Shown piece after piece: positions 6,724-36,939 of a stretch of DNA of 64,000 nucleotides. The stretch's first letter is position 1; every line of letters starts with the position of its first letter. The stretch comes from Methyloprofundus sedimenti. GTDB taxonomy: Bacteria; Pseudomonadota; Gammaproteobacteria; Methylococcales; Methylomonadaceae. A program made the position numbers and the translations under genes. The stretch spans positions 219,001-283,000 of the forward strand of contig NZ_LPUF01000001.1 in the NCBI RefSeq assembly GCF_002072955.1. The letters are read 5' to 3'. The notes beneath the pieces are model-generated. The model searched no databases. It was not told the origin of the DNA and saw nothing but the letters and a program-made list of their open reading frames with translations.

Positions 6724-7263
6724 CTATTCTTTACCTATTTCATTGGGTATTTCAATACCTGAAACACCCCAATTTTTCGGAATAATTCCGTCTTTTATAT
6801 ATTGATGCAAACTGGAATAAGGCCAATCAACCGCTTTATTGGTATATCCATGCTTTACTGGGTTGTAATGTATATAATCAATATGCTCATGATAATCCTG
6901 CTCATTCCGTATCATATGCTCCCAAAAACGATGCTGCCAAATGGCTTGTTGTTTTTTTCGTATTCTGGCTTGATTGGGTTGATTTATATTCGTCTTATCA
7001 CAATTTTTGCTAAATCCTGTTTTAATCAAACGCCAACGTGTTGAATAATCATGATCACCTTCCGGTAATGTCCAAATGCAATGAAGATGATCGGGTAATA
7101 CCACAATGGCATTAATCGTAAATGGATATTTTTTCATCACCTTTTTAAATGACTCGCGCAATATATTTATTTGTTTTTCATCTTTAAAAATAGGTCGTCT
7201 TTTTTCTGTCACCAAGGTGAAAAAATAACAAGCTCCTTTGATATAGACCCGATGATATTGCAT
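6724..7263 (-). CDS. REP-associated tyrosine transposase (RAYT, Y1_Tnp family)
   Basis: The 179-residue product has the IS200-like Y1 nuclease fold markers. The HUH motif is VVLPDHLHCIWTLP. Further blocks are WQHRFWEHMIRNEQDYHEHIDYIHYNPVKHG, which contains the candidate catalytic Tyr, and WPYSSLHQYI. The family moves or processes REP sequences and is normally flanked by them. Here REPs of matching sequence lie on both sides (6600, 6679, 7277). The frame is intact, so the enzyme may be active. The ATG at 7263 follows directly on REP 3. Confidence 0.92.
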   Translation of the reverse strand: MQYHRVYIKGACYFFTLVTEKRRPIFKDEKQINILRESFKKVMKKYPFTINAIVVLPDHLHCIWTLPEGDHDYSTRWRLIKTGFSKNCDKTNINQPNQARIRKKQQAIWQHRFWEHMIRNEQDYHEHIDYIHYNPVKHGYTNKAVDWPYSSLHQYIKDGIIPKNWGVSGIEIPNEIGKE

Positions 7264-7992: not shown

Positions 7993-11564
<3,572 letters not shown>

Positions 11565-11570
11565 AGCGCC

Positions 11571-12671
11571 TTATAAACGCATTGGCATAACAATAAATTT
11601 ATATTCCTGTTCGTTAGGCTCTTCAATAAAACAACAGCTGGAATTTTCAGCGATAGTGAGCACTGCTAGTTCAGAATCCAGATTAGCGACAGCATCTAAA
11701 ATATACTGAGAATTAAATGCAATCGAAAGTGGTTGCCCTTGGTATTCAATAAAAATCTCTTCATCAGCTTCTTCATGTTCGGGGTTATTAGTACTTATTT
11801 TTAAGTTACCCCCATCAATAGAAAACTCAACCCCTTTAAACTTTTCATTTGAAAGAATCGCAACTCGCGTTAAAGCATCTTTTAATAATTGTTTTTGTAC
11901 ATGAATCGGACTATAAAAGTCCTGCTCAAAAACTTTGCTAAAGTCCGGATATTTTGAATCAACCAGCTTGGCTGAAAATATCAAATTACCAATGACTACA
12001 CGTATATTATTACGCGAAAAATCTACCTGTAATTCCTGTTCCTCATTATCTAACAAACGTGCTAATTCCAATACACCTTTTCTAGGAATAATAATGCGCA
12101 ATTCAATCCCGGTTTCCTGAGCAATACGATCTTCATAGATTGCCAGTCTATGACCATCAGATCCAACCAGTTTAAGTTGCTGGTTAAATATATTCAGCAT
12201 AATGCCATTTAAGTAATAGCGTATATCCTGATTAGCCATGCAGAATGTTGTTTTATCCAGAGCTTTTTTGAGCTGGCCTGCTTGTATAGAGAAATGACAA
12301 TCCATTGAGCTCATTTCAAAGTTTGGATAGTCATCAGCCGGTAGAGTACTTACGACAAAGCGACTACGACCTGATTGAATTTTTAATTTGTTGTCACTTA
12401 ATTCAAATTTAATATCAACAGCGCTGGGTAATAAACGACAGATATCGAGAAGTTTCCGTGCCGGAATAGTAATACTACCTTCGACTTCATTATCCAATGC
12501 AAGTTTAGCAACAATTTGTACTTCCAGGTCTGTGCCCGTCAATGTAAGTTGATTGTTTTGCAATTGAAAAAGCACATTAGCAAGAATAGGCATGGTTTGC
12601 TTTTTTTCGATAACATTGACAATCTGCTGTAGAGGCGTGAGTAATAGCTCTCTATTAATTATAAATTTCAT
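11571..12671 (-). CDS. dnaN: DNA polymerase III beta sliding clamp
   Basis: DnaN is the ring-shaped processivity clamp of the replicase. The 366-residue product has the same length as E. coli DnaN. It starts MKFIINRELLLTPLQQIVNVIEKKQTMPIL and ends EQEYKFIVMPMRL; the C-terminal VMPMRL is the hallmark of the hydrophobic pocket that binds clamp partners. Three similar clamp domains follow in order. It is the first gene of the dnaN-recF-gyrB run. The usual upstream neighbour dnaA is absent here and lies at 30.8-32.1 kb. Confidence 0.98.
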   Translation of the reverse strand: MKFIINRELLLTPLQQIVNVIEKKQTMPILANVLFQLQNNQLTLTGTDLEVQIVAKLALDNEVEGSITIPARKLLDICRLLPSAVDIKFELSDNKLKIQSGRSRFVVSTLPADDYPNFEMSSMDCHFSIQAGQLKKALDKTTFCMANQDIRYYLNGIMLNIFNQQLKLVGSDGHRLAIYEDRIAQETGIELRIIIPRKGVLELARLLDNEEQELQVDFSRNNIRVVIGNLIFSAKLVDSKYPDFSKVFEQDFYSPIHVQKQLLKDALTRVAILSNEKFKGVEFSIDGGNLKISTNNPEHEEADEEIFIEYQGQPLSIAFNSQYILDAVANLDSELAVLTIAENSSCCFIEEPNEQEYKFIVMPMRL

Positions 12672-12998
12672 AAAAGATATATTATTTTATTAGTATTACT
12701 ATTGAGTTAGCTTCTAACTATTGATAGGTATTATTAGGACAGCATTTTAACCTGTTTTGTAACCTTGTGCCTAAGATTGAAAATACTTGTATCCTGGATT
12801 TACAGGTAAATGAAAGCGTTAAATTCAAGTACTGACCGAACACAATAAACCCGGCACTCAAAGTACTGGATTGTGCATAGAATGAAACCGGGGTGCTGTG
12901 GTAAAGCGGACCTAAAGTCCGCTATAAGAAATACGACTCAAGAAGGGAAAAAACAGGCGAACTAGAGTTAGAGTCCGTCTATACTGAATTAAAAATTT
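12672..12998. other. intergenic region upstream of dnaN
   Basis: No gene is visible. The dnaN promoter should lie here. A short hairpin (12905-12923) lies toward the 3' end of the upstream minus-strand gene. Confidence 0.55.
12905..12923 (-). terminator. possible hairpin 3' of the conserved unknown gene
   Basis: AGCGGAC, a five-base loop and GTCCGCT form a perfect 7 bp stem about 75 bp beyond the stop at 12999. No strong U-run follows on the minus strand, so a terminator role is weakly supported. Confidence 0.3.
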
Positions 12999-14414
12999 CT
13001 ATCTAGCAGAGTAGCCAAGCAATCTTTTACTAATAATCATTTTAGAAATAGATTCAGGGACTTGATCCTCCCATTTTCCCCTCCCTTTTTGAATTTCTGA
13101 GAGTACTTGAGATGGATTTATATGCAGCATACTTTCGTCTACATTTTCTAAACCTACCAAATAACCATTTTCTTTACAGTATTCAAATAAGTGCTGTAAT
13201 TTTTTAGGCGGTTTAAAATTATCAATCGTGATTAATTCTTCTTGTTCAGGGCTTTTGATAGGGTATATGTATAAACGGGTATTGTCTGGAAATAATTTTG
13301 CGAACGCTTCCAGAATCCCTCCTTCTAATCCAATATAATAATCTTCAGTGAAAATAAGATCCAGATTGGAAATTCCAAGAATCATACCAAGCTGTTGATT
13401 GGTATAACGACGGAAATATTGACGTAAGCGGAAATAGCGCAAATAATTAGAAATCATCACTGTATATCCCTGGGTGTTTAGCATATCCACACGAGCAAGA
13501 AAATCAGCATCATCGATTACATCACCTACAGTCAAGCTCGCCATAGTTATTTCAGCTAACACCAGGATTTTGCTGGTATCAATATTATCAACTTCCTTAA
13601 AGTGTTCCTCACCACATTTTTTCATATCAAGATGTAGTTTTGTTAAAGGCGTGTAGGTGCCACGGATTACCAAAATATTTTTCTTGTACAGGAGTTCACT
13701 AGGCACTTGTACTTCACCTTCCGGGCTAAACATTATGGCATGCGTCAAATTTTTATGAACCAGATGTAAATTCATTAATCTATTTTCAGTCTCTTCAAAA
13801 TAAGGACCTGAAAAATTAATTAAATCAACTTCAATACGGCAGGGTTCTAGATCATCAACCAACGCTTCAATGATTTTTTTAGGTTGAGTGAAATGGTGAA
13901 AAGCAGCATGAATTAAATTTACCCCTACTACACCTAATGCCTCTTGCTGAGCACCACCATCATTATCTAACATACGCACATGTACAATAATATCGCTAGG
14001 TGCAGCTCCGGGGTATAGCTGTACTCGAATACCTAACCAACCATGACATTCATTTTTTTGTAAATAACTTTTTGCAGTGACTGTTGCAGCATAAGAAAAA
14101 AAAGTAGTATTTCTCGGGCGTGTTGGAGTTAATAAATCAGTAACAGCCGTATATTCCCGATCCAGCATTTTCATCAATCGACTGCGACTGACATATCGCT
14201 TGGTTTCTTCAGCCCCATAAATATCATCACTTACTTGCATATCATATGCGGACATTGTTTTAGCAATTGTTCCGGCTGCTCCACCTGCTTGAAAAAAGTT
14301 TCTTGCAACTTCCTGACCCGCTCCTATTTCAACAATTGTTCCATACTTGCAAATATCCAGATTAATTTCTAAAGCTTTTTGTAATGTTTTTTGAATTTTT
14401 TCACGATCAGACAT
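12999..14414 (-). CDS. conserved protein of unknown function (471 aa)
   Basis: I do not recognise a characterised function. The protein begins MSDREKIQKTLQKALEIN and appears soluble: no signal peptide or membrane segment is seen. A stretch RGTYTPLTKLHLDM (about residues 248-261) resembles the phosphate-binding loop of nucleotidyltransferases (GTFxPxxxxH). This may be why relatives are sometimes annotated as nicotinate-nucleotide adenylyltransferase, but the downstream ISTSR-like motif is not evident. It lies between dnaN and the candidate origin, reading away from the origin. Confidence 0.7.
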   Translation of the reverse strand: MSDREKIQKTLQKALEINLDICKYGTIVEIGAGQEVARNFFQAGGAAGTIAKTMSAYDMQVSDDIYGAEETKRYVSRSRLMKMLDREYTAVTDLLTPTRPRNTTFFSYAATVTAKSYLQKNECHGWLGIRVQLYPGAAPSDIIVHVRMLDNDGGAQQEALGVVGVNLIHAAFHHFTQPKKIIEALVDDLEPCRIEVDLINFSGPYFEETENRLMNLHLVHKNLTHAIMFSPEGEVQVPSELLYKKNILVIRGTYTPLTKLHLDMKKCGEEHFKEVDNIDTSKILVLAEITMASLTVGDVIDDADFLARVDMLNTQGYTVMISNYLRYFRLRQYFRRYTNQQLGMILGISNLDLIFTEDYYIGLEGGILEAFAKLFPDNTRLYIYPIKSPEQEELITIDNFKPPKKLQHLFEYCKENGYLVGLENVDESMLHINPSQVLSEIQKGRGKWEDQVPESISKMIISKRLLGYSAR

Positions 14415-14489
14415 TTTGGTAAAACCTTTTGGTAGTAATTTTTACAGTCATTATGACGTGTTAGTTAGTAATAATAAAATATTTATTTA

Positions 14490-14700
14490 TATAAACTTAC
14501 TATTACTATTAGTCATTGATTAAGTTGTGGATAAGCTGTTTTTCAACATTAATATCAATTTCTTAACGTGTATGTAACTATGTTATAAAGTTTAGTGTTG
14601 AGTGTGACAAAGGTGTACGTAAAAAGGCAATGAATCATTGAACACAGAATAAAAACATCTTTAAACATGGCTAATTAACAGGGTTGTACACACTTGCAAG
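14490..14700 (+). repeat. origin-like repeat unit, copy 1
   Basis: The unit contains AT-rich ACTTACTATTACTATTAG, then a perfect DnaA box (TGTGGATAA), TTCTTAACGTGTATGTAA, ATGTTATAAAG and AAAACATCTTTA, and ends ATTAACAGGGTTGTACACA. It aligns block by block with copy 2 about 860 bp to the right. Confidence 0.7.
14526..14534 (-). promoter_or_regulatory. DnaA box (perfect)
   Basis: TGTGGATAA here is TTATCCACA on the minus strand, the exact E. coli-type DnaA box. It follows an AT-rich trinucleotide-like run (TACTATTACTATTAG) that could serve as the unwinding element. Confidence 0.7.
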
Positions 14701-14722
14701 CGCTCAAAATATTATCTGATTA

Positions 14723-14832
14723 GCCACAAGCTTCAACTATCTTTAAAAAAAATGCGTATAAATCTAATGTAGCCCATATGACGTTTATGGAATGCGGAGA
14801 ATAGGTGCCATGAATATCCCGTATTCCGCTAG
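14723..14832 (+). repeat. dispersed repeat C, copy 2
   Basis: The stretch ACAAGCTTCAACTATC to TATTCCGCTAGC is nearly identical to 263-366. It sits between the two origin-like units, so a mobile or recombining repeat has entered this gap. Confidence 0.75.
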
Positions 14833-15349
14833 CGCCATAACGGGCAACAAAGTAGTTATTGATAGGCTGAAAATTAAACGTAATCAGGAAATATTAAAAA
14901 CGGAGCTAGCTTAACTAAATGAATATTTTAGTGCTCCATTTAGGTTTGGAACATCTGCGTAAGCGAACAGTATTTTTTTGTCGATAAAATATAAGGTGCT
15001 CCGATATCAATCACATCAGGACATGTAAGGTAAAAAATATAAACTGCTGCAGATTTTATAAAGGGATGTAGCTCGAATCAGAGCAACATCCATTTCAATT
15101 TGTCTCGTTGAGCCTGGATACCTAAAGTAAGTCTGTGTAAAAAATAATTCTCCAATACTGTTTTTAATCGCATATGTATCAATCCAATACTATCGAATAT
15201 GAATTCGATAGTTTAGTTTGGCAATTCTGCTGACTTTTCAATACATAAAATTTCTAAATTTGAAATCTTTGAACGGGCAATCCAAAGATCTCTCAGTGCC
15301 AGGATTTTAAGCACTTTGTAAAATCTCTAATAATTATAAGAAGGTTAAA

Positions 15350-15560
15350 TATATAAACTTATTATTACTATTAGCAAAGCAAAAGTCTGTTGATAAGTTA
15401 TTTTTTAGCTTAACTATCAGTTTATTAACCTGTTTGTAATATTGTTATAAAGCTTAGTTATAGATGTTACAAAGATGTGGGTTTAAAGGACAGTAAAAAT
15501 TAATAACAGATAGAAAACATCTTTATGTATACATAGTTAACAGGCTTATGCACATGAAAC
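15350..15560 (+). repeat. origin-like repeat unit, copy 2
   Basis: The unit starts ACTTATTATTACTATTAG, contains TGTTGATAA (one mismatch to a DnaA box), TTATTAACCTGTTTGTAA, TTGTTATAAAG and AAAACATCTTTA, and ends GTTAACAGGCTTATGCACA. The order and spacing of the blocks follow copy 1. Confidence 0.7.
15546..15554 (+). promoter_or_regulatory. DnaA box (TTATGCACA)
   Basis: TTATGCACA fits the TTATNCACA consensus exactly. It lies at the right edge of origin-like unit 2, close to the tesA stop. The matching position in unit 1 (14684) reads TTGTACACA. Confidence 0.6.
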
Positions 15561-15570
15561 TTGCTAAGCT

Positions 15571-16170
15571 TTACAACAATGGCAACAGATAAGGCACTAT
15601 ATTATTTGCAATAACAGTTTGTGCGATTTCATTAGGATGTAAGCCATCGCGCTGTATTTGAGATTTATCTAAAGCAACACCTTCGAGAATAAAGGGTACT
15701 AAAGTAATATTGCTTTTTTTAGCTATTTTTTCATAGCTGGTATAAAACATGTCAGTGTAGCGTTTTCCATAATTACTGGGTATACGCATAGTTAGTAGTA
15801 AAACTTTTGCACCCGATTTTTTTGCCTGTTCAATTATGGCAGTTAAATTTTGTTGCATGTTCTTTAAAGACAAACCTCTTAACCCATCGTTCGCACCAAG
15901 TTCAAGTATGAGTATCTCGGGTTGATATCGGGTTAGTATTTGCGGTAAACGTGCTAGTCCTCCGGCGGTAGTATCACCACTAATACTTGCATTATGCACT
16001 GTATAATCAGGATGACTGGATGCCAATTGCTTGGCCATTAAAGCAACCCAGCCATGTTGTACTTCAAATCCATAGCTAGCACTGATACTATCTCCTAAGA
16101 CTACAATTGACTTTGCCTGTGTCAGCGTAGAACAAAAAAATAAAACTCCCACTAAAATAACTTTAAGCAT
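15571..16170 (-). CDS. tesA: TesA-like SGNH lysophospholipase / thioesterase
   Basis: This is a periplasmic GDSL/SGNH esterase of the TesA (acyl-CoA thioesterase I, protease I, lysophospholipase L1) group. Block I is VVLGDSISASYGF with the nucleophile Ser, block II SGDTTAGG, block III ELGANDGLRG and block V RDGLHPN with the Asp-His pair. I choose the ATG at 16170, which starts MLKVILVGVLFFCSTLTQAKS, a clear signal peptide; the in-frame upstream extension to 16290 has no such support. It is divergent from the ybbA-like gene, with only 1 bp between the two start codons. The same tesA / ybbA / ybbP arrangement exists in E. coli. Confidence 0.93.
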   Translation of the reverse strand: MLKVILVGVLFFCSTLTQAKSIVVLGDSISASYGFEVQHGWVALMAKQLASSHPDYTVHNASISGDTTAGGLARLPQILTRYQPEILILELGANDGLRGLSLKNMQQNLTAIIEQAKKSGAKVLLLTMRIPSNYGKRYTDMFYTSYEKIAKKSNITLVPFILEGVALDKSQIQRDGLHPNEIAQTVIANNIVPYLLPLL

Positions 16171-30763: not shown

Positions 30764-32101
30764 TTAATGCGATAAGGTACGCAACAAATTCGCATAATCT
30801 TCATCAACTTTATAATCGCTAGCACGTAATGCCTTAATTCGTTTACAGGCATTAATGACCGTAGTATGGTCACGACCACTAAAAGCATCACCAATTTCAG
30901 GTAAGCTATGGCTGGTTAATTCTCTTGCCAATGACATGGCGATTTGTCGAGGTCGTGTAACTGATTGTTTACGGCTTTTGGATAATAAATCGGCAATTCT
31001 GATTTTGAAGTAATCAGCAACTGTTTTTTGAATATTGTCTATGCTTACCAGTTTATCTTGTAGCGATATTAAATCGTGTAGTGCTTCTTTAGCAAAATCA
31101 ATGGTAATATCCGCTCCCGTAAATTGAGCATTGGCCAGAACACGACGTAATGCACCCTCCAGGTCCCGCACATTTGATGGAATACGTTTACCAATAAAAA
31201 AAGCAACCTCATGATCCAGTTCAACATTATTTTGCTGAGCTTTATTGATTAAAATTGCCGCTCTTGTTTCCAGATCAGGCGGCTCGACAGCCACAGGTAA
31301 GCCCCAGCCAAAGCGTGATTTTAAGCGGTCTTCCAGCCCATCAATTTCCTTCGGGTATTTATCACAGGTTAAAACAACCTGATTTTTCTTTTCTAACAGT
31401 GTATTAAAGGTATGAAAAAACTCTTCCTGTGAGCGCTCTTTCCCCGCAAAAAACTGGATATCATCAACAAATAAAGCATCAACATTACGATAATAGTCTT
31501 TAAACGCATTAATACTGTTTTGCTGGAACGCCTTAACCATATCCTGAACAAATTTTTCGGAATGTAAATAAACAACATTGGCATTTGGGTTTTTTGCCAG
31601 AATTGCGTTACCGATGGCATGCATTAAATGTGTTTTACCTAAACCTGATGCACCATAGATCAGCAAGGGATTATAAGCTTTGCCTATGTTTTCGGACACT
31701 TGAATTGAAGCTGCTTTTGCCAGTTGATTAGATTTACCTTCAACAAAATTCTCAAAGGTAAAAGCGGTATTAATAAAAGTGGGTGTTTTTTTCTTCTTTT
31801 GAGGTTCACTGGAAGGGCCGGTAGTGCGCGTGCTTCGATTTGCTATGATTGCAGGTTTAGCATTTTTTGAGCCGATCTCCATTTTTACAGTATATTGACC
31901 ATTGGAAAATTCATAGATCGTATCTTCAATTTTACCTAAAAAATGATCTTTTACATGCGCAATAATAAACTGGTTGGGAGCCAGAAGTTTAATAACATCA
32001 TTTTCTACTTGCGCTTGTAATGGTCGAATCCAGGTGTTTAAATCATTAGCAGAGATTTCATTTTCAAGACGGGACAGACAGGAATTCCAAATAGAGCTCA
32101 T
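30764..32101 (-). CDS. dnaA: chromosomal replication initiator DnaA
   Basis: DnaA binds origin boxes and melts the origin. The 445-residue product has domain I ([25 protein letters not shown]), a variable Ser/Lys-rich domain II (about 80-105), the AAA+ domain with Walker [16 protein letters not shown] and Walker [17 protein letters not shown], and the DNA-binding domain IV with [20 protein letters not shown] and [13 protein letters not shown]. It is not followed by dnaN; dnaN-recF-gyrB lie about 18 kb to the left. I see no strong DnaA box in the 147 bp upstream region. Confidence 0.98.
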
Positions 32102-36432: not shown

Positions 36433-36939
36433 GTGAGTAATATTTTAGAAGAATTAGAAACAGTCTTATCATCAGATGCGCAGGTCTATACTCCCGAAGG
36501 AAGTGAATCTAAAGCTGTAGTTCATCAGTGGGTGCATGCCATTGCACATGATTTACCTCTTTTTGCTGAAGTTAAAGGGGTTAATAAATCAGCTATTATA
36601 AAGACCCTTAAAGACAATCAGCTCTTTAAAGATAAAACCTCATTTCATCATAAATTAACAGCACATTTGCCTATTGTTCCGCCTAACAAGGCAAGGTTTA
36701 CATTTATTGATCTCTTTGCCGGTATTGGTGGCATGAGAATCGGCGCGCAAAATAATGGCGGTGTTTGTGTGTTTTCTTCAGAATTTGAAAAAAATGCGCA
36801 ACAAACGTATTTAGATAATCACGGTGAACTTCCTTTTGGAGATATAACTGAAATAGCCGTAACTGATATTCCTAGTCATGATGTCTTGTTTGCTGGATTT
36901 CCTTGCCAACCTTTTTCGCAAGTAATGGTGTCGATGTAA
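36433..36939 (+). pseudogene. truncated DNA (cytosine-5) methyltransferase, N-terminal part
   Basis: The frame encodes 168 residues. After an N-terminal extension of about 95 residues come motif I FTFIDLFAGIGGMRIGAQNNGG, motif II (FSSEFEKNAQQTY) and motif IV FAGFPCQPFSQ with the catalytic Cys. The frame then ends at VMVSM. Motifs VI-X and the target recognition domain are gone. The same frame continues past the stop for only 19 more codons. A complete C5 methyltransferase has 300-400 or more residues, so this is a deletion remnant and cannot methylate DNA alone. It lies 80 bp before the McrB-like gene. Confidence 0.88.

Follow-up and report, generated by a model that had tools for sequence, protein, structure and literature searches.

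Repeated oriC-type units suggest a multi-copy replication origin in Methyloprofundus sedimenti and its relatives

The textbook rule is that a bacterial chromosome has one oriC. A locus of Methyloprofundus sedimenti, a methane-eating marine bacterium, raises the question whether this rule holds there. The stretch analysed, of 64,000 nucleotides and called the window below (G000:C1:219001-283000, from a genome of 4.29 Mb in 6 contigs), includes a gene-free gap of 1.15 kb (1156 bp) in which the first-pass annotation had noticed two diverged copies of a segment of roughly 210 bp; these were read as a bipartite or duplicated oriC, or as an old duplication with one degenerate origin. The gap is bounded by X471 (12999-14414, minus strand), the gene of an uncharacterised 471-aa protein, and by a GDSL hydrolase gene, called tesA here (15571-16170, minus strand; ORF and family match), and the ORF list of the window has no ORF of 90 aa or longer within it. 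The two copies, A and B, are in the same orientation and share 72% identity (161/225 positions; BLAST E 3e-29).

Both copies have the appearance of a complete oriC unit on the plus strand. Unit A (14485-14692) is matched with 117.3 bits at G000:C1:233486-233692 by a search model, model R1, that was built from an alignment of the units of the genus (alignment A2), and unit B (15346-15554) with 119 bits at G000:C1:234349-234554. The AT-rich run of A (14486-14512) carries five DnaA-trios, TAATAGTAATAGTAA on the minus strand (trio definition from PMC8287927), and that of B (15346-15374) likewise five, TAATAGTAATAATAA on the minus strand. Next to it lies a box resembling R1 on the minus strand, which is perfect in A (TTATCCACA, 14526-14534) and has one mismatch in B (TTATCAACA, 15388-15396), while the R4-like box on the plus strand at the other end has one mismatch in A (TTGTACACA, 14684-14692) and is perfect in B (TTATGCACA, 15546-15554), so that a perfect end box is paired with a mismatched one in both units (mismatches of the boxes at 14684-14692 and 15388-15396 counted against TTATNCACA). 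All four boxes, found by box scan, are where they had been placed beforehand, and the proposed combination of an AT-rich run with box-like ends holds for both copies. An IHF-like site follows R1 on the plus strand, namely TATCAATTTCTTA in A (14553-14565, no mismatch to WATCAANNNNTTR, the consensus from PMC5742627) and TATCAGTTTATTA in B (15415-15427, one mismatch). The right-hand ACA motifs are found at 14644, 14655, 14678 and 14690 in A and at 15506, 15517, 15540 and 15552 in B, i.e. with identical steps of 11, 23 and 12. A third, decayed copy, unit C (12677-12879, plus strand), lies between dnaN and X471; it scores 43.9 bits at C1:231677-231879, no intact trio run and no IHF-like site were found in it, and it is better preserved in several relatives. 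Apart from A, B and C the model finds just one weak place (19.2 bits) in the genome.

The same anatomy recurs across the genus. Alignment A2 contains 32 of 39 genus copies, and the conservation figures lean towards full copies since short, partial or near-duplicate rows were dropped (G011_far2, G015_dnaN, G017_dnaN, G004_dnaN, G008_dnaN, G014_1 and G014_3). From left to right, the order is an AT-rich run with trios, R1, the IHF-like site, two opposed arrays of putative DnaA sites, and R4. The AT-rich run with TTATTACTATTAG gives five TAA/TAG triplets on the opposite strand in 31/32 units, A and B included, the exception being a copy of G009, so a putative unwinding element with trios stands beside R1 nearly throughout. 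A DnaA-trio motif beside a box has been described as the basal unwinding system (PMC8287927), and for Alteromonadales TATTACTGTTATT appears in a list of DnaA trios (PMC7174414). The inward box R1 reads TTATCCACA in 23 of the 32 aligned units, the outward box R4 at the far end does so in 21, and two perfect end boxes are present in 22. The IHF-like site, between R1 and the weak-site array, occurs in all 32 (11 with no mismatch, 21 with one). The two arrays that appear to end in R1 and R4 are visible as TGT at columns 42, 97 and 119 (97-100% of ungapped rows; 97% at column 97 and 100% at column 119) and column 130 (75%), and as ACA at columns 160, 171, 194 and 206 (100% of ungapped rows). The dnaN-side copies deviate in that all five in the alignment have a two-mismatch R1 box, TTTTCAACA, and this copy is more decayed in G000 and G008.

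Chance was rejected as the source of the likeness of A and B on the basis of the E value given above and of the clustering of perfect boxes, as two of the window's four are within the 1156-bp gap (binomial chance 0.002). DnaA boxes alone prove little: the window has 104 with at most one mismatch, shuffles have 89.3 +/- 9.4, and 8/100 of them reach 104; IHF-like sites with at most one mismatch number 181 on both strands. An RNA gene or paired promoters in the gap were likewise rejected, as Rfam at E <=1 gave nothing in the gap (one match far under the gathering score is inside X471) and promoter-like sites showed no excess (5 vs 7.6 +/- 2.6 in shuffles). A mobile copy as the origin of the units was also rejected. 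The interspersed repeat found here (about 14716-14887, no strand assigned), with CTGATTA.../...TAATCAG ends and a long hairpin, sits between the units and excludes them; a folding energy of -49 kcal/mol was obtained for 14705-14901 (197 bp), and the repeat has at least nine further places in the genome, one at 241-367 of the window (10 of 70 candidates scored). Between A and B there is also a ten-pair palindrome (15189-15212), terminator-like on the plus strand.

Is the gap the chromosomal origin? The neighbours that had been named, dnaN-recF-gyrB, span 12671-7993 (dnaN itself, a gene match, at 11571-12671 on the minus strand), and parS-like palindromes occur three times, at 10428, 10467 and 10510 (10428-10525, no strand assigned), a number that 0/100 shuffles reached. 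The predicted change of gene direction at 16.17 kb was found at 16170/16172. The dnaA gene (30764-32101, minus strand) is 16 kb from the units; as no other match at E <=1e-50 is present in the genome, DnaA is single. A skew minimum elsewhere, for example beside dnaA, had been named as the observation that would speak against an origin here, and it was looked for: the cumulative skew minimum of the window is at 14.5 kb, and GC skew is negative over 0-16 kb and positive afterwards, with the exception of the bin 40-48 kb (-0.012). In the 20 stretches of the main contig that were sampled in addition to the window, it is negative in 3/4 to the left of the window (the exception, +0.013, is at 20 kb), positive in 12/12 from 283 kb to 2.2 Mb and negative in 4/4 from 2.4 Mb, and the strand-corrected skew over whole stretches goes from -0.024 (error 0.044) to +0.099 (0.027). 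In G009, a genome of the same genus in two contigs, the skew changes sign at 4.077 Mb, where the units of that genome lie, and dnaA (C1:100-1437) is 309 kb from them if the contig is circular. Since the skew turns from minus to plus here and at the G009 units, 309 kb from dnaA, the gap is almost certainly, as far as sequence can tell, the chromosomal replication origin of this Methyloprofundus species; an origin beside dnaA was rejected on the same grounds, and the origin appears to stay with the units and not with dnaA.

It is instructive to see how many copies other genomes have. Model R1 finds units in 16/18 Methyloprofundus genomes, each in at least two separate places of at least 84 bits; relatives have two to four copies with varying spacing and orientation, and in G014 up to four are found in one region, one of them partial. 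The other two genomes, G003 and G012, gave no unit match with this model and were not used in comparisons. G012 contains two DnaA-like matches (C22:9122-10501 and C31:8288-9580; 67% and 38% identity) and may represent a mixed bin. Outside the genus, the family was sampled as genomes at least 90% complete; 132/167 of them match at E 1e-5 (16 of the non-matching genomes not being individually listed), and 92 of the matching genomes do so at least twice, a few counts possibly including opposite-strand overlap; among matched genomes in five or fewer contigs the proportion is 30/33. The layouts of 15 genomes from other genera, chosen since most had several matches, have one to three units adjoining dnaN, with dnaA next to the dnaN-side units in 12/15 and another unit 5-25 kb away in 9/15. 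Elsewhere single matches prevail: other families of the order have exactly one in 36/42 matched genomes (E 0.01), and in the class sample 62/185 genomes match, 60 of the 62 in one place (G000 and G027, of the same order, set aside), although diverged second copies can be missed there because the model was trained on Methyloprofundus. Ten weak hits in G001, which cover part of the left half of the model (about 24-26 bits, one at L236 2702-2817), were rejected as oriC units, being part of a different repeat; the ORFs in one examined stretch of this repeat read like transposases.

The presence of more than one seemingly complete origin sequence on one chromosome makes a duplicated oriC very probable, and this part of the first-pass reading stood. 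G016 is a nearest sampled relative (X471 89% identical), and the gap aligns with it at the units only (BLAST E <=1e-3), each unit aligning with both units of the other genome. A and B look maintained, because the units still align and the spacers no longer do; the idea of one degenerate origin left by an old duplication suits unit C. In the unit tree, a sketch printed without support values and drawn without G008_dnaN, G014_1 and G014_3, A falls together with the copy on the X471 side in G016, which suggests that the duplication preceded the split between the two genomes; dnaN-side copies are on a branch of their own. The perfect R1 box is in the X471-side copy in G000 (A) and in the tesA-side copy in G016.

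Are the additional copies used? A and B share one gene-free gap, so skew cannot separate them. Four genomes have an extra pair of units. In G005, G011 and G013 this far pair shares a contig with the near unit and lies 26, 23 and 21 kb to the right of it, respectively, and in G008 it is on another contig; the genes beside the near unit have the same order and direction as in G000. The comparison covers up to seven right-side genes (two in G008) in approximately the first 9 kb of the interval. At fourfold sites the GC skew of the right-side orthologs is -0.14 to -0.23 in 4/4 far-pair genomes and +0.03 to +0.32 in 9/9 genomes with no known far pair, with the caveat that such an absence in draft genomes can be an assembly gap. 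Third-position coding-strand skew is -0.055, -0.083, -0.004 and +0.044 in G005, G011, G013 and G008 (in listing order) against +0.116 to +0.449 in the nine others, with a Mann-Whitney p of 0.0014 that ignores kinship. G002 (right side 0.000) was left out, its two units, a tesA-side and an X471-side copy, being located on separate contigs, and adding it gives p 0.002; G007 and G010 are outside the comparison, as their right-side genes are absent from the available sequence. Strand-corrected skew is -0.177 on the left, -0.058 between and +0.167 on the right in G005 (errors about 0.04, 0.04 and 0.02), and -0.070, -0.128 and +0.254 in G011 (errors 0.05, 0.03 and 0.07).

The simplest cause would be that leftward forks from the far pair replicate the interval in these species, and the reversal fits either two origins in use or an origin move to the far pair. 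Because it accompanies the far pair, extra copies seem to serve as origins now or to have done so in the past. There are several points to be kept in mind. The four far-pair genomes may descend from a common ancestor, in which case the reversal could represent a single event. Far-pair and other genomes do not differ in TA skew, and G013 has negative skew over the 3.8 kb that follow its far pair on the right. The left-side genes, an internal control, are mixed at fourfold sites (positive in 5/9 without and 3/4 with a far pair) and mostly positive at third positions (7/9 and 4/4). In 8/9 genomes, these being from other genera with G005 included, the whole-sequence skew of the interval between two sites departs from zero by no more than 0.016; this is a weak pattern, because at least 3/6 genomes that have a single site and do not belong to Methyloprofundus likewise show flat skew close to the origin (G132, G123 and G153; G082 by strand-corrected skew too), and it was set aside as proof of dual use. 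A lower third-position skew of X471 than of dnaN was seen and left unused, the composition of the genes being uncontrolled.

Taken together, we consider it likely that the origin is multi-copy, with two complete units of E. coli type (A and B) in tandem plus the decaying C, acting as redundant origins. DnaA from the distant dnaA gene would bind R1 and R4 of a unit and fill the two opposed arrays of weak sites, with IHF bending the DNA (the genome encodes IHF alpha, the product of himA, and also Hda); DnaA would then melt the trio/AT-rich run, and the helicase would be loaded. Either unit would suffice for initiation, which is why redundancy is proposed, and extra copies would let the origin shift along the chromosome over evolutionary time. 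On balance we favour the view that A and B are each able to start replication; that both do so in normal growth is a tentative suggestion that we would sooner doubt than adopt. Equally tentative is an extension to the Methylomonadaceae, whereby one chromosome would have several complete, DnaA-driven oriC copies, each firing in some or all cells, and the origin would move when the 210-bp unit is duplicated and activity then passes to the new site, the strand composition between it and the old site ending up reversed.

The main competitor of redundant origins is that one unit is the working origin and the other a relic of an old duplication that may bind DnaA and no longer initiates. We find this unlikely, but it deserves attention: unit C has the look of such a remnant, the R1 box of B and the R4 box of A are mismatched, and in P. 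aeruginosa only one of two autonomously replicating origins is described as essential under usual laboratory conditions (PMC4403523). Against it, both A and B keep trios, IHF-like site and arrays at equal spacing next to a spacer that no longer aligns with G016, and at least two copies of at least 84 bits persist in 16/16 matched Methyloprofundus genomes. The bipartite half of the first-pass reading fared worse. Two clusters of DnaA boxes close together near dnaN would agree with A and B being halves of one origin that need each other, as in B. subtilis or H. pylori, yet in divided origins one sub-region holds the unwinding element (PMC4285127), whereas trios, R1 and R4 are all found in A as well as in B. 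As unit number, spacing and orientation also differ among relatives, and matches elsewhere in the class are mostly single, we regard this arrangement as improbable. Much the same estimate applies to the extra copies being regulatory DnaA-binding sites (datA- or DARS-like) that set the level of active DnaA: the trio/AT-rich element adjoins R1 in the units, datA not being known to have such an element, and the far pair accompanies reversed skew of neighbouring genes. It is true that DnaA boxes and an IHF-like site are present, as they are in datA (PMC5742627).

It is useful to compare these units to origins known from other bacteria. In the oriC of E. coli the boxes are leftward in the left half and rightward in the right half, with one IHF site (PMC5742627). 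The units agree with it in the order and opposed orientation of the parts, with 11-bp array steps and a length of about 210 vs 245 bp. They differ in that there are two or more per chromosome, that they are near dnaN and not beside dnaA, and that GATC is absent in 28/32 units (0 in A, 0 in B) and a search of the G000 genome gave no SeqA match. SeqA/Dam control is not known to be a defining feature of oriC outside the enterics and their kin. The Pseudomonas aeruginosa/putida pair (Yee and Smith 1990; Jiang 2006; as cited in PMC4403523, PMC4285127 and PMC3642087) is similar, being two origin sequences on a gammaproteobacterial chromosome; unlike what these sources describe, the copies here occur across a family, with up to four per region (G014, one partial), and strand composition suggests that an extra pair is used. 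The bipartite origins of Bacillus subtilis and Helicobacter pylori share with our locus two DnaA-box clusters near replication genes, whereas here each unit appears to have its own unwinding element. The putative double origins of Ori-Finder (PMC4403523: Acidaminococcus, Dehalobacter, Ralstonia, Ochrobactrum) are also second oriCs predicted from sequence; they are single scattered cases, while the copies described here recur in many members of one family and are accompanied by comparative skew evidence. A strain of Vibrio cholerae that has one chromosome and two functional oriCs has been cited (PMC10225481). For methane oxidisers we found no paper on multiple oriC among titles and abstract openings of open-licence PMC articles, and the terms oriC, dnaA and origin of replication are absent from the main text of the Methyloprofundus INp10 paper (PMC8788690). 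The many relatives with at least two copies would be a good test of multi-start bacterial chromosomes; as several complete copies of one origin sequence are frequent in a family that includes one- or two-contig genomes, the question can be addressed by read-depth mapping, and the skew reversal offers a means of tracing origin movement.

A few words are due on the neighbouring genes. X471 occupies the slot that dnaA has in most of the sister genera examined, and was considered as a replication factor. This was rejected: Pfam and NCBIfam searches at the chosen cut-offs assign it to no family, PDB entries match it at E 0.71 at best, and among the best 80 of 241 loci its relatives are largely from Rhodocyclales, 66/80 of the loci having neither units nor dnaA/dnaN nearby (some contigs are short). 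Its AlphaFold model is poor (mean pLDDT 57). An IS200-like (Y1) transposase gene adjoins gyrB (6724-7263), and farther to the right, beyond dnaA, a short ORF (36433-36939) matches just positions 1-76 of the 324-position profile of C5-cytosine methylases.
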